From positions 1-21,279 of the IMG/VR virus record IMGVR_UViG_3300047546_000183: DNA of 21,279 bases. One strand, 5' to 3'. Position 1 is the first letter of the stretch. The number at the start of each line of letters is the position of its first letter. Below, piece after piece: positions 8,795 to 14,464 of this stretch. The position numbers were made by a program, and so were the translations under genes. Origin of the DNA: a virus. The notes below the pieces were generated by a model that saw only the letters and a program-made list of their open reading frames with translations, ran no database searches and was not told where the DNA came from.

Positions 8795-9183
8795 CAGTAA
8801 TCAAGCTCCCCGGCAAGGTTGATCGTCACAGTATTGCGTCCCACGTAGACCGAACGCACTTCAGGCGGGCTAGTGTATTCCCATTTAATTTGTGTTGGCG
8901 ATTGGATCTTGCTGGTTAGCGTTGCGTCCATCCCAGCAAATGTTTCTGCGGGCAAGGTAAACCGACTGAAACCGCCAGACGTGCCGTTGTAATGGTCGAT
9001 CAGCTGGGATGCTGCGGTATCGGTGATGTTTGTGAAGGTCAGCTGCAGTTCGTAGCCGTAGGCGCGATTGCCAAAGGCTCGCTTGACCGTGGCACCAGAC
9101 AAGGCGCGGTACACCTTTGTGGGAAACTGCCCAAGACGGAAACTCCGCTCTGATGGTTTGATGCCGGGGAATTGAGCAGTCAT
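8794..9183 (-). CDS. Minor tail protein following the tape measure (distal-tail position)
   Basis: 129 residues with alternating beta-strand character (YGYELQLTFTNITDTAAS, GGFSRFTLPAETF, VYVGRNTVTINLAGELDY). Position directly after the tape measure gene and before the L-like gene corresponds to lambda M or a distal tail protein. The start overlaps the tape measure stop as TGATG, and the stop overlaps the next start in the same way. Probable role: first ring below the tape measure at the tail end. The assignment is mainly positional. Confidence 0.72.
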   Translation of the reverse strand: MTAQFPGIKPSERSFRLGQFPTKVYRALSGATVKRAFGNRAYGYELQLTFTNITDTAASQLIDHYNGTSGGFSRFTLPAETFAGMDATLTSKIQSPTQIKWEYTSPPEVRSVYVGRNTVTINLAGELDY

Positions 9184-11354
9184 CAGCGGAGACCCACGCG
9201 GCTACGGGTGCCAGGGCTTTGTTGCAGTTTATCCAAGGTCATTGTCATTCCTCGCTTTGCACCGTCGCTGGCGGCTTGGCGGCGGGTGGCTGCCATAGCT
9301 TGCTCCAGCTGATCACGGCTGACGTATTCGACCCCGCCAATGTTCGTAGTCTGGAAGCTCATGTTGAGCACTGGTGCGCCTGCTGCAGCGGAACCGGAAC
9401 CCATGGCAGAACGCAGGTCGTTGTTTGACATGACGTTGCCGCCTGTTGAAGGCACAAACAGTTCAGGACCACGCTCACCAACGACATAGGGTTTGCCGCC
9501 TGTTACAGAGCCACCAGCCGCACGTGTAGGCAGCAAACTTGGGAGGCTAAATCCTTCTGCAAATCCGCCGCCACTTGGCAGTTGAACAGGTCCAGCACCT
9601 TGGAACATGCCACTTGAACCGAGACCGGCAAACATCTTGGCGATACCAATGGCGATATAAGTCGCGATCATTTTGGTACCTTCCTGAGCAAGAATTTGAC
9701 CAACACTTTGTAGGAAGTTCGCAAACACTTCTTTGGCGCTTTGTGTGCCGGCAATTAAGCCTTGTATGCCGCTAACCAAAGACGTGGCAATGGCATCACC
9801 AATTCCTTGTGCGACGCTGATTGCGCGAGTCTCAAGATCCTGTAGCTGCGCTTGCGCGTCTTGAATAAATGTCGCTACCTTGTTTTGCGGGCCAAGGTTG
9901 ATATCCGTCCTAAATGCTCCGGCTCCACCAGGTAGCATTTCGCCAGCCGTCAGTCTGGCACGTTTGTAGTATTCCTCAACTTGCTTTTTAAGTTCCTCTG
10001 TTTGTAGTTGAATAATCTCTAACCGATTTATTTCGCCATTCAGTGTCGTCAGATTCGTTCGTTGTTCTGCATTTTTTAGTTCACCAATCTGCTTAGTGCG
10101 ATCTTCAAAGTCGAATTGAATTTGCAGGCGTTTGCGTTCAATTTCTGAGCTTTCGTCTAGTAATAAAATCTGACGGCTGAATTGAGTCCCAAGTTGATCA
10201 CCAACTTCCAGCGACCGTTCAAGTTCTTTGCGCAGACGTTCCGCCTCACGCTCGGCATCGGATTTGCCTTCTTTCTTTTTCTTGCCACCAGTGGCCGCCA
10301 TAAGCCCTGGCAGCGTGACTGGAGCGGCAGGCGGCGTTGCAGTAGGCGGCTTGAGAATGCCCTGCTGATAACCGTATGTCCGCATTAGATCGCGGAACCG
10401 CTCTTCGCGTAATTGCGTAAATTGATCTGCATTAATGCGACCACCTCCGCGCAACCTAGCAATTTGTTCAGCTTCTTGCCCTGCTTGCCTAAACAAACGA
10501 TCACGTTGTTGCGCCGAAAGGTTTGCGCCTAATTGACGCTGCAGCAAGATTGTTTCAAAGACGTTATTAACCTGATTTGCGATATCAATAGCAAGACCCA
10601 AAATGCTCTGCATTGCAGGGGCAAGAATTGACCCCAAACGCGAAGCAAGGTTTTGCACAGCATCTTGCAGCGTGCTGAATCGCCCGGCTAACGTATCACT
10701 TTGCGCCACGGCGCCATCGGCATATTTGCCGCCAGCAGATGTAAGTTTTTGAATGGCATATTCAACAGCTTGTGCGCTGATTCGCCCTTTCTCTAGCGCA
10801 TCCTGAAATTCTTCACCGCTTAAGTTGTATTCCTCGCGTAGAACCTGTTGAAGCGCAACGCCACGCTCTTGGAACTGCAATAGTTCCTCGCCTTGCAGCC
10901 TGCCTTTCGCTTGGACTTGACCGTAGGCCGTGACAAGACCGCTTAACTCTGCACCAGTGGCGCCACTTACATCAGCAAGACGCCGCGTTGTTTCGACAAC
11001 CTTATTCGTTTCAACTCCAAACGCCTGCAATCGCTTGGCTGAATCAATTAGTTCAGTGCTGGTAAACGGTGTTGCCGCACCTAATTGCTGAAGATCTTTA
11101 ATGATCTGTCCAGCCTTTTCGGCACTGCCAGTCAGAACCTGGAGGCTACGTGTTTGGCTTTCAATTTCCGCTGTACTAACAAAAACGAACTTGGCCGCCT
11201 GAATGACAGAAAAAGCAGCAGCAAGCTTGCCTATCGCACCACCAAGGCCTCCTATTGCACGTTCTGTTTGCTGCGCTTGTGACTGAACCTCGCGTAGCTT
11301 CTGAGTTGCGCCACGGCTATCAACGTTAATGGCAACGTTGGCGACGACAGACAC
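9183..11354 (-). CDS. Tape measure protein
   Basis: 723 residues. Residues about 60-250 match the conserved N-terminal tape measure domain, including TGATGAELSGLVTAYGQVQA-like and GEELLQFQERGVALQQVL segments. A lysine-rich stretch (KKKKEGKSDAEREAERLR) starts a long helical, coiled-coil region to about residue 465. A hydrophobic segment follows (SVGQILAQEGTKMIATYIAI and on), then the C-terminal GGSVTGGKPYVVGERGPELF motif common in tape measure proteins. The start is GTG at 11354, seven bases after an AAGGG ribosome site. By the usual rule of about 1.5 angstroms per residue the tail would be a little over 100 nm; this is an estimate. It spans the tail lumen and sets tail length, using the chaperone encoded just upstream. 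Confidence 0.95.
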   Translation of the reverse strand: MSVVANVAINVDSRGATQKLREVQSQAQQTERAIGGLGGAIGKLAAAFSVIQAAKFVFVSTAEIESQTRSLQVLTGSAEKAGQIIKDLQQLGAATPFTSTELIDSAKRLQAFGVETNKVVETTRRLADVSGATGAELSGLVTAYGQVQAKGRLQGEELLQFQERGVALQQVLREEYNLSGEEFQDALEKGRISAQAVEYAIQKLTSAGGKYADGAVAQSDTLAGRFSTLQDAVQNLASRLGSILAPAMQSILGLAIDIANQVNNVFETILLQRQLGANLSAQQRDRLFRQAGQEAEQIARLRGGGRINADQFTQLREERFRDLMRTYGYQQGILKPPTATPPAAPVTLPGLMAATGGKKKKEGKSDAEREAERLRKELERSLEVGDQLGTQFSRQILLLDESSEIERKRLQIQFDFEDRTKQIGELKNAEQRTNLTTLNGEINRLEIIQLQTEELKKQVEEYYKRARLTAGEMLPGGAGAFRTDINLGPQNKVATFIQDAQAQLQDLETRAISVAQGIGDAIATSLVSGIQGLIAGTQSAKEVFANFLQSVGQILAQEGTKMIATYIAIGIAKMFAGLGSSGMFQGAGPVQLPSGGGFAEGFSLPSLLPTRAAGGSVTGGKPYVVGERGPELFVPSTGGNVMSNNDLRSAMGSGSAAAGAPVLNMSFQTTNIGGVEYVSRDQLEQAMAATRRQAASDGAKRGMTMTLDKLQQSPGTRSRVGLR

Positions 11355-11380: not shown

Positions 11381-11566
11381 CTACCGTCGTCGTTTCATCT
11401 GACGTTCTTGCTCTTCATTCTGAATCTCAAAATAACTAGACCAGATCAGCAGCTCTTCTAGCGTGATTTCAGCATTGAGCCGAGCCAATGAATAGCCCAG
11501 CTCTTTTGCTACCCCAAGCTGTAACAACAGCAGATTGTCTTTCTTTAGCTCAGCCTTTACGGCTTT
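11381..11566 (-). CDS. Tail assembly chaperone frameshift extension (T part of a GT-type product)
   Basis: This frame has no ATG start except near its end and overlaps the end of the chaperone gene. It is open from just after a TGA at 11569-11567 to TAG at 11383-11381. It encodes ELGYSLARLNAEITLEELL followed by a WSSYFEIQNEEQERQMKRRR ending, which is typical of the T half of tail chaperones. It lies in the +1 frame relative to the upstream gene (equivalently -2). The overlap contains AAAA at 11567-11564, where a lysine tRNA on AAA could re-pair after a +1 step; an AAAG at 11558-11555 is an alternative. A shift at AAAA would give a 175-residue fusion. Role: binds the tape measure before tail assembly. 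The frameshift site is inferred. Confidence 0.8.
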   Translation of the reverse strand, partial: KAVKAELKKDNLLLLQLGVAKELGYSLARLNAEITLEELLIWSSYFEIQNEEQERQMKRRR

Positions 11567-11909
11567 TCATATCCAGTTCTTTGCCTTCCTCAGGGTTGGT
11601 GATGATGGCCAGCATCATGGCTTGAAGGTCAGCGTCAAGCACGTCGTTTTTTAGCTCAGCAATTTCACCAGCTTGAAACAGGCGTTGCCCTGCGTCATCA
11701 ACAGCTTTCGTAACCAAGAGATTCAAGGCAAATCCATTCGGATCATCACCGCCAGGCATCTTCTGCGCACGCTCACGCTCAGCCATCGTCAACGGTGTTG
11801 CGTAAAACTCAAACACATCGCCATTTGCCAAGGTCACCACACGCTTAATAGGCGTCAGGTTGGCTGCCTTTTTCAGACGGGCAAGGGCTGACGAAACCGG
11901 CGCAGGCAT
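11550..11909 (-). CDS. Tail assembly chaperone (G part)
   Basis: 119 residues, in the lambda G position between tail tube and tape measure. It contains PIKRVVTLANGDVFEFYATP, a PLTMAERERAQKM segment, and an acidic helical end (EIAELKNDVLDADLQAMMLA), consistent with this group of tail chaperones. It ends in DMKSRKG and TGA at 11552-11550. A further open frame that encodes the T half overlaps its last codons, so part of the ribosomes probably shift frame. No good ribosome site precedes ATG 11909; it lies 33 bases past the terminator after the tail tube gene. Expected to act in the cytoplasm and to be absent from virions. Confidence 0.85.
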   Translation of the reverse strand: MPAPVSSALARLKKAANLTPIKRVVTLANGDVFEFYATPLTMAERERAQKMPGGDDPNGFALNLLVTKAVDDAGQRLFQAGEIAELKNDVLDADLQAMMLAIITNPEEGKELDMKSRKG

Positions 11910-11995: not shown

Positions 11996-12751
11996 TCAGG
12001 CAGTGGCAAAGTCGAAGGTGGGCACGCCAGACGGGCGGAAGGTAATTTCAACCTGTTGGGCGTCGTCGGGGTTGATGTTCAGGCTGGCCGTCAGCAGCAC
12101 GGCATCCATGGCGATGGAGCGGCTAAGAGCCTCAGTGCTTTGCTTGTCGGTGTACAGCTTGAAAGCGCAACCAACTTGCTGACGTTGCAACACGTCTTCA
12201 ACCATGCGGTTAGACAGGGCGCTGTCTTCGTTGGTGACGTAAATGGTGGCAGTGCCGTTGCCATCAGCAAAACCGGGGATATAGGCGCGGAAGGGCGCAT
12301 ACTGACCGGCGGTTTGACCGATGACTGTAACGTCAATTTCAGCGCGACTAATTTCGAAGCTCCAGGATTGAACCTGGCCAACAGCGGCATAATCCGCGTA
12401 GTACACCTCAAATTCGTTAGGTGCAGCCACGGTGCCATCATCTGTGATCGCAAGGATGGTGCCACCAGCGGCAGTCGATACGGTGAGCGCACCAGTTGCT
12501 GCGGTGTAACTCAACACGTAATAGGTGGTGCTGGAATCAATAGGCGAAGGCAAAGTGCCGGTGCCAGATCCACCAGTTTGGCTATTGACGACGCGGAACT
12601 TAACAGGATCGCCCGCCTTCAGATTGAGATAAGTCTGAACAGTGATCGTGTCAGTACCAGCATTCACGCCAGACTCACCGAATGTACCGGTGGTGCCAGC
12701 GGGCTTGTAATACAGAGCGCCGGACGTGCCGGACAAAACAGTGACAGCCAT
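11996..12751 (-). CDS. Major tail protein (tail tube) with inserted beta domain
   Basis: 251 residues, between the tail terminator and chaperone genes, where siphoviruses encode the tube. The N-terminus SGALYYKPAGTTGTF and residues 127-251 (QSWSFEISRAEIDVTVIG, FRAYIPGFADGNGTATIYV, VEITFRPSGVP) fit the tail tube fold. Between them, residues about 33-116 look like a separate beta domain (LKAGDPVKFRVV, STTYYVLSYTAATGALTVST, GGTILAITDDGT), probably exposed on the outside of the tube. The start is ATG 12751 with no clear ribosome site and 29 bases after the previous stop. A terminator follows. It forms the stacked rings of the tail. The plus-strand open frame across it is an artefact of codon bias. 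Confidence 0.88.
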   Translation of the reverse strand: MAVTVLSGTSGALYYKPAGTTGTFGESGVNAGTDTITVQTYLNLKAGDPVKFRVVNSQTGGSGTGTLPSPIDSSTTYYVLSYTAATGALTVSTAAGGTILAITDDGTVAAPNEFEVYYADYAAVGQVQSWSFEISRAEIDVTVIGQTAGQYAPFRAYIPGFADGNGTATIYVTNEDSALSNRMVEDVLQRQQVGCAFKLYTDKQSTEALSRSIAMDAVLLTASLNINPDDAQQVEITFRPSGVPTFDFATA

Positions 12752-13620: not shown

Positions 13621-13977
13621 TCATTCCCTCAGAAATATCTCAAACACAATTGCCTGATTATCCTGTTCAATCTTGTTGACCTGTACGGTTTGCATGATCC
13701 GCCCGGAGATTGTCACCTGATCAGCCACGCTGGGTTCAGCAGCAAGATCAACAGCAGCCACCGTCAGCTTCTTATCTGTGCTCTTGATTAGGTCGTTTAG
13801 CTCACGTTCAGTTACAGCTTCAAGCACGCCGCGCACAACGGTCTCAGAAGCAGTTGGTGTTGCCGTGCCTGTCGTCGGGTTGTACGCGCCAGTGGTGATT
13901 CGCCTGATGGTGACTTCGCCGCCGAATTTGGCCATCAATTTACCAGCGGTCTTCCGTAGTGAAGTAGCAAGTGCCAT
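13621..13977 (-). CDS. Head-tail stopper or joining protein
   Basis: 118 residues. A basic N-terminal helix (SLRKTAGKLMAKFG) is followed by beta strands: GEVTIRRITTGAYNPTTG, a VVRGVLEAVTERELND segment, and VADQVTISGRIMQTVQVNKI. This fits the SPP1 gp16/HK97 head-closure type of small beta-barrel proteins, and gene order supports it (before the gp10-like gene). The stop of the preceding gene and this ATG share TAATG. Role: closes the connector so that packaged DNA is held and the tail can dock. Confidence 0.78.
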   Translation of the reverse strand: MALATSLRKTAGKLMAKFGGEVTIRRITTGAYNPTTGTATPTASETVVRGVLEAVTERELNDLIKSTDKKLTVAAVDLAAEPSVADQVTISGRIMQTVQVNKIEQDNQAIVFEIFLRE

Positions 13978-14225
13978 TAGAGCTTGTACGCGACGCAGTG
14001 ACCGTTTTGCAGTTTGATGCTTGTAAAAACACCGTACAACGTTGTGGCGGCGCTCATGGATTGACCAGACAAGGTGGAACCATCCCAGTTCTGCGCAACA
14101 ATTGCGTCAATTTGGGCATTTGTTGTGAAATAAATTGCTGCCCAACGACCGGTGCGCGTCGTACTGTCGCCAATAAATGTTGCGCCTTTAGCGTAATCAA
14201 TACCGAGAACGTTGGAATCACTCAT
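13977..14225 (-). CDS. Small beta-rich protein, copy 2 of a tandem pair
   Basis: 82 residues, similar along its length to the gene just upstream. Shared features are a TGR(W/F) motif followed by a (R/A)(L/I)Y strand, an AQN/VQN turn, an S-rich strand, and the ending GVFTSIKLQNGHCVAYKL, against GVFTSVTLASGKIVAYKI in its neighbour. Both genes begin after the same junction (TGATCATG) with MSDSN or MADSD. Small proteins of this kind with a GxFTSIxL...AYK ending occur in phage structural clusters; the role is unknown. Position among connectors suggests a virion protein, for example a small head decoration or spike. Its stop overlaps the next start as TAATG. Confidence 0.8.
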   Translation of the reverse strand: MSDSNVLGIDYAKGATFIGDSTTRTGRWAAIYFTTNAQIDAIVAQNWDGSTLSGQSMSAATTLYGVFTSIKLQNGHCVAYKL

Positions 14226-14227
14226 GA

Positions 14228-14464
14228 TCAGATTTTATAGGCGACAATTTTGCCGCTTGCCAGAGTGACGCTTGTGAATACGCCTTCAATTGAATCACCG
14301 GCAGCCAAGGGCACAGAGCTGAAGGTATTGCCGCTGGCGTTCTGAACAGTCGCTGTGCTGATCACTGCATCAGCAAGGGCGTAGAGCCGCCAAAACCTGC
14401 CGGTGTGAGCGCTGGTATCACTGATGTACTCAAAACCAATGTTGTACATATCAGAGTCAGCCAT
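14228..14464 (-). CDS. Small beta-rich protein, copy 1 of a tandem pair
   Basis: 78 residues, related to the gene immediately downstream. It reads TGRFWRLYALADAVISTATV, then a GNTFSSVPLAAGDSIEGVF stretch and SVTLASGKIVAYKI. No cysteine, transmembrane segment or known catalytic motif is visible. It lies two bases after the connector gene stop and two bases before its paralogue, so all three are probably translated together. The family is unknown to me by name. Tandem divergence suggests two related subunits, perhaps of a heteromeric ring or of head spikes. Confidence 0.8.
   Translation of the reverse strand: MADSDMYNIGFEYISDTSAHTGRFWRLYALADAVISTATVQNASGNTFSSVPLAAGDSIEGVFTSVTLASGKIVAYKI

Follow-up and report, generated by a model that had tools for sequence, protein, structure and literature searches.

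Probable +1 frameshifting in a phage tail assembly chaperone gene

The tail assembly chaperones gpG and gpGT of phage lambda arise from a short G gene and an out-of-frame T extension that is reached by a −1 slip at a slippery heptamer, and their chaperone function is described in the accessible part of PMC5009743. Tail-chaperone shifts of −1, −2 and +1 have been published (accessible parts of PMC5009743, PMC4299906, PMC7230728 and PMC8211752), and the T gene of phage Mu lies in the +1, or −2, frame (accessible parts of PMC5009743 and PMC4378225). Extension of the tail chaperone via +1 is known for Bacillus phage Moonbeam, HSTV-2 and the HF1-group haloviruses, with slippage annotated in TTT CAA CTC TGA for Moonbeam and proposed at TTT-CGC for the HF1 group. 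An AGN-type sense codon occupies the A site in Ty1 (CUU_AGG_C), Ty3 (GCG_AGU_U) and the AGY sites of ant mitochondria (PMC5009743, accessible part). In the accessible text of PMC10885494, the PRFect authors state that a general motif for forward slippage in bacteria has not been identified. The prfB type of +1 shift has a stop codon in the A site. In Euplotes, AAA before a stop codon is used for frameshifting.

The locus described here belongs to a siphophage-like late module, encoded on the minus strand of a 21,279-base IMG/VR virus record (the window, which spans the whole record). It shares with lambda the gene position, flanked by the genes for the major tail protein and the tape measure, and the arrangement of a short G reading frame with an overlapping out-of-frame T that is conserved in relatives; unlike lambda, it has T in the +1 frame and AAA AGC at the junction. 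The site differs from those of Moonbeam and the HF1 group, neither of which is AAA AGY, and from the prfB type, since the A-site codon in the +1 loci listed is AGC, AGT or AGG. It resembles Ty1, Ty3 and the ant mitochondria in its AGN-type A-site codon, but belongs to a bacterial system and, unlike Ty3, allows full AAA-to-AAA re-pairing. We found no description of AAA AGY as a shift site and no frameshift report for the cyanophages discussed below in a literature search that mostly excluded subscription papers; a match to the site sequence in the SPP1 literature turned out to be a terminator rather than a frameshift. The AAA AGN junction appears, from comparative data, to be a real and well-conserved +1 variant of known tail-chaperone frameshifting.

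The G/T locus

Table 1. Features of the G/T junction and its surroundings, in window coordinates.
Feature	Position	Strand	Basis
Major tail protein gene, upstream neighbour of G	11996..12751	−	phrog_158, E 1.9e-7
G, tail assembly chaperone, 119 aa	11550..11909	−	Open reading frame; phrog_20784; HK97 chaperone-like fold (2ob9)
Purine run with GAGGAAGG at codons −8 to −6, which may act as a weak Shine-Dalgarno-like stimulator	11583..11591	−	Frequency of GAGG-type runs
T-frame TGA 5′ of the site, by-product of ATG-A	11567..11569	−	Non-adjacent in most L286 relatives
Putative shift site AAA AGC (P-site AAA 11567-11565, A-site AGC 11564-11562)	11562..11567	−	Conservation of AAA AGN
T extension as decoded after the predicted slip, GCC first, TAG 11383-11381	11381..11563	−	Open frame; relatives; synonymous change
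G stop codon TGA	11550..11552	−	Sequence
Tape measure gene, downstream neighbour	9183..11354	−	phrog_9959, E 1.1e-35
AG-345 clade, candidate upstream elements: Shine-Dalgarno-like run and GGCTAAAGCC			

The identity of G was approached through both sequence and fold (Table 1). G matches phrog_20784 with an E value of 2.3e-34, a family annotated with unknown function, and its homologues give weak matches to phrog_344 (tail assembly chaperone) and to Pfam TAC_13, one checked match to the latter falling below the cut-off. An AlphaFold2 model of G built from 53 family members is matched best, among PDB structures, by the HK97 tail assembly chaperone 2ob9 (Foldseek E 1.1e-3, probability 1.00; VIA-align Z 6.7, rmsd 4.6, 95 aligned); its mean pLDDT is a middling 64.9, which counts against the assignment. 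The predicted HK97-type fold lends moderate support to G being a tail assembly chaperone. The family profile matched no PDB sequence, and a search of genome contigs with G found no relative. A search of the window for phrog_344 gave no hit, its control likewise being without one.

On the minus strand, G ends in GAT ATG AAA AGC CGT AAA GGC TGA, with the ATG at 11570-11568, and the T frame, following a TGA at 11569-11567, is open from 11566 to its TAG (61 codons). A preliminary description of the window had placed T in the +1 (equivalently −2) frame relative to G, had proposed AAAA at 11567-11564 as the slip site and had noted that no X_XXY_YYZ site is available; its coordinates were correct when rechecked on the window sequence, the frame relation is as described and no such heptamer was found in the overlap. 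Elsewhere in G, upstream of the T-frame stop, positions 11652-11646 (−) form a canonical A_AAA_AAC in the G frame. A −1 slip at this heptamer was considered as a route to T and rejected, because its product terminates after 91 residues and so cannot reach T. CTA AAA AAC occurs at this position in 6/83 loci of the window clade, with mostly other codons elsewhere.

Two classes of putative shift site among relatives

Relatives comprised the window, IMG/VR contigs and named phages, the contigs being the matches listed in similarity searches, and removal of seven contigs fetched twice left 374 loci, window included. Among these matches, T is in the +1 frame relative to G in 243 loci and in the −1 frame in 127, counts that reflect selection by similarity and say nothing on prevalence; four loci (L055, L096, L236 and L356) could not be called, as T was missing or the contig ended. 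The comparison with related phages that the preliminary description had suggested shows the frame relation and AAA AG recurring. An in-frame AAA AGN lies within the overlap of all 243 listed +1 loci, which represent 192 distinct 450-nt cores, and of none of the 127 listed −1 loci. The A-site codon is AGC in 235 of the listed +1 loci, AGT in 6 and AGG in 2, and AAA followed by A, so that the P-site tRNA could re-pair one base forward across AAAA, is kept in 243/243. As background, the 240 nt 5′ of the site in 188 +1 loci together comprise 14,664 codon positions, of which only 10 have in-frame AAA AG. Among the −1 loci listed, 124/127 carry an X_XXY_YYZ heptamer, with T in the corresponding −1 frame: AAAAAAC (61), CCCAAAG (17), CCCAAAA (14), AAAAAAA (13), GGGAAAG (11), AAAAAAG (3), GGGAAAC (3) and CCCAAAC (2). 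The heptamer-less −1 loci among the matches listed are L218, L219 and L382. A TTTAAAA heptamer is also present in 13/243 of the listed +1 loci, which counts against the +1 model.

Named phages fall into both classes. The nearest is Cyanophage KBS-S-2A (NC_020854; 69.5% DNA identity), whose homologous G and T are 69.1% and 75.0% identical to those of the window; unlike the window it has a −1 arrangement at A_AAA_AAC, and T is unannotated in its record. The same heptamer is found in S-H1, HTVC202P and HTVC026P, and C_CCA_AAG in S-2L. Marine virus AG-345-A17, whose plate the accessible part of PMC6122165 assigns to the extracellular sort gate, is +1, with TTG AAA AGC TAA. In the Prochlorococcus phages MED4-117 and MED4-184 (L218 and L219), T lies in −1 across a heptamer-less overlap that holds just A_AAG; this junction may represent another unusual site.

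Among these homologous chaperones, slips in opposite directions would lead into the same T domain, and the two classes have separate signals. Like many aquatic phages related to it that keep the codon pair, the window belongs to the class with the predicted forward slip, the rarer direction compared with the usual backward one. With this natural contrast one can test directly which feature of a codon pair favours forward slippage in bacteria, and whether the phage is sensitive to the direction of the slip or to the product ratio alone. For annotation of the phrog_20784 family, it suggests that where the heptamer is absent, AAA AGY should be sought near the G stop.

Selection at the site and proposed mechanism

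All 65 distinct stretches of the window clade have AAA and AGC, and the preceding ATG is likewise invariant once L040 and L058, each with a second AAA AGC, have been aligned in register. The G codon after AGC is free, being represented by 11 codons, whereas the bases after the site read in the T frame always encode Ala (four codons), followed by V, L or I in 63/65 stretches, the other two being the mis-registered loci. Pairwise comparison of the overlap in 58 sequences gives, for the G frame, 167 synonymous against 2136 non-synonymous differences and, for the T frame, 1265 against 814. This synonymous excess in the T frame, together with the free G codon, indicates that T is translated from the codon directly after the site.

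In the AG-345 clade, the G stop follows AGC immediately in 50/65 distinct stretches, so that the P site at the moment of the slip can hold only AAA or AGC, and only AAA re-pairs fully one base forward. AGC accounts for 105/1,915 serine codons of this clade (105/36,333 of all codons, with AGT at 658), yet is found at the site in 60/65 stretches. In the window clade AGC is not rare (980/51,601 codons), and slow decoding of AGC there is a possibility only.

AAA AGN is exclusive to the +1 loci among those listed, and the sequence that follows it evolves in the T frame; a slip of one base forward is therefore most likely, and programmed +1 ribosomal frameshifting very probably yields a GT fusion of the tail assembly chaperone. 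In the proposed mechanism, G would be translated until AAA is in the P site with AGC waiting in the A site; a share of the peptidyl-tRNA-Lys would then slip one base forward, re-pairing fully from AAA to AAA, whereupon GCC would enter to give ...LDMK-AVKAELKK... and a predicted GT of 175 residues, as against 119 for G. By analogy with lambda, G would coat the tape measure protein and T would recruit the major tail protein. It is from these patterns that we infer the occurrence of slippage, its direction (+1 over −2), its efficiency and any role for a slow AGC.

Alternative explanations

The same reading frame would result from a −2 shift of the kind known for Mu (PMC5009743, accessible part), in which the tRNA moves back two bases and one extra residue is incorporated, and the frame relation itself agrees with this route. 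Pairing rules argue otherwise: two bases back, a P-site lysyl-tRNA would meet UGA, UAA, CCA or ACA, depending on the E-site codon, and a serine tRNA leaving AGC in this way would meet AAA. The window family therefore differs from Mu in having no conserved −2 re-pairing, as opposed to the AAA-to-AAA +1 re-pairing present in 243/243 of the listed +1 loci, which makes a −2 shift improbable. The preliminary description had also drawn attention to the TGA adjoining the site. Most relatives of L286 have their T-frame stop 38 or 53 nt upstream of the G stop, and the adjacent TGA is consequently a by-product of the E-site codon, not a signal. A slip at the second candidate AAA GGC (11558-11553), three codons later, had been put forward as well, and AAA is indeed found there in 61/65 window-clade rows, with two others in another register; it is, however, GAA in L066, L115 and L116 and is absent from the AG-345 clade, where in most loci the stop right after AGC leaves no later codon. 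This position is very unlikely to be the site used.

Two further possibilities would dispense with forward slippage at AAA AGC altogether, and the preliminary description had named both as grounds on which its reading would fall. T could begin at its own internal start codon, given that TTG or ATG occurs in the T frame at some loci; the first T-frame ATG, GTG or TTG is nevertheless scattered from 6 to 40 codons after the site and is missing in 4/188 loci, and these codons lie mostly within the conserved T domain, whereas selection on the T frame begins earlier, at the codon after AAA. We consider independent initiation as improbable as use of the second AAA. A one-base sequencing or assembly error splitting parts that are really in a −1 or a single frame, as can happen in single metagenome contigs, has a negligible chance of accounting for an arrangement that recurs, with the same frame and site, in 243 listed loci and 192 distinct 450-nt cores. 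Forward slippage at AAA AGC remains the preferred reading.

Apparent changes of direction by recombination

On trees, the +1 loci are mixed in among the −1 loci. The joint G and T tree requires four direction changes (88 rows) or five (98 rows), the G-only tree seven, at least four of them forced by starred branches, and the T-only tree five, with at least one so forced. A single clade of all +1 rows is rejected (p-AU 0.0024), as are the groupings of the window with L282 (0.012) and of the window with L282 and L119 (0.023); those of the window with L119 (0.25) and of L282 with L119 (0.32) are not rejected, all groups tested having been named after the tree was seen. In L375 (+1) and L380 (−1), blocks of G share 55 to 60 of 60 bases almost up to the site, after which identity falls to 28-37 of 60 through T and to 17-24 of about 60 beyond. 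L375/L374 and L306/L338 break at the same place of the junction, with opposite directions. It would seem that a recombination breakpoint lies at the shift site and that the site and T have been exchanged along with the beginning of the tape measure gene. Since recombination is visible at the junction, a convergent origin of AAA AGC through several independent inventions is not claimed.

Candidate stimulators

Loci of the AG-345 clade have a Shine-Dalgarno-like purine run (AGGAGG, GAGGAG or AGGGGG) some 23-31 nt before AAA in 81/81 cases, against 6.8% of 12-nt background windows, and the amino acids encoded there vary (K or R, then G or E). GAG GCT AAA GCC is invariant in 65/65 AG-345 stretches. 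This sequence, situated 45 nt upstream of AAA AGC (L123-L202 and L084), consists of codons otherwise uncommon in this AT-rich clade. It could form a GGC-UAAA-GCC hairpin, a possible structure for which RNAalifold scores on short upstream stretches were equalled by 5/100 and 4/100 column shuffles; on the longest stretch, where a second small hairpin is added further upstream, 7/100 shuffles were as low. As the sequence is invariant, the hairpin is devoid of covariation.

In the window clade, GAGG-type runs occur at −24 to −15 in 58/63 stretches, compared with 2% of background windows, and codon −8 is GAG in 56 and GAA in 5, as opposed to 242 to 139 in the gene body; this is suggestive only of a weak Shine-Dalgarno-like stimulator. 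RNAalifold predictions downstream of the site in the window clade were no better than column shuffles, which counts against the +1 model.

A broader model, to which we give even chances, would hold that AAA_AGY is a recoding signal of bacteria in its own right, intrinsically +1-prone, that T and the tape measure are exchanged as one cassette with the shift site, recombination at the G/T junction thereby changing the direction of the frameshift, and that in the AG-345 clade the signal is boosted by the Shine-Dalgarno-like run and the invariant GGC-UAAA-GCC mini-hairpin sequence that follows it, a new kind of stimulator located upstream.

Elsewhere in the window, two adjacent small reading frames on the minus strand, 13977-14225 and 14228-14464 (82 and 78 aa), are alike by eye, both having a TxHTGR/TRTGR-like stretch and a GVFTS..L..G..VAYK end, and look like a tandem duplication.
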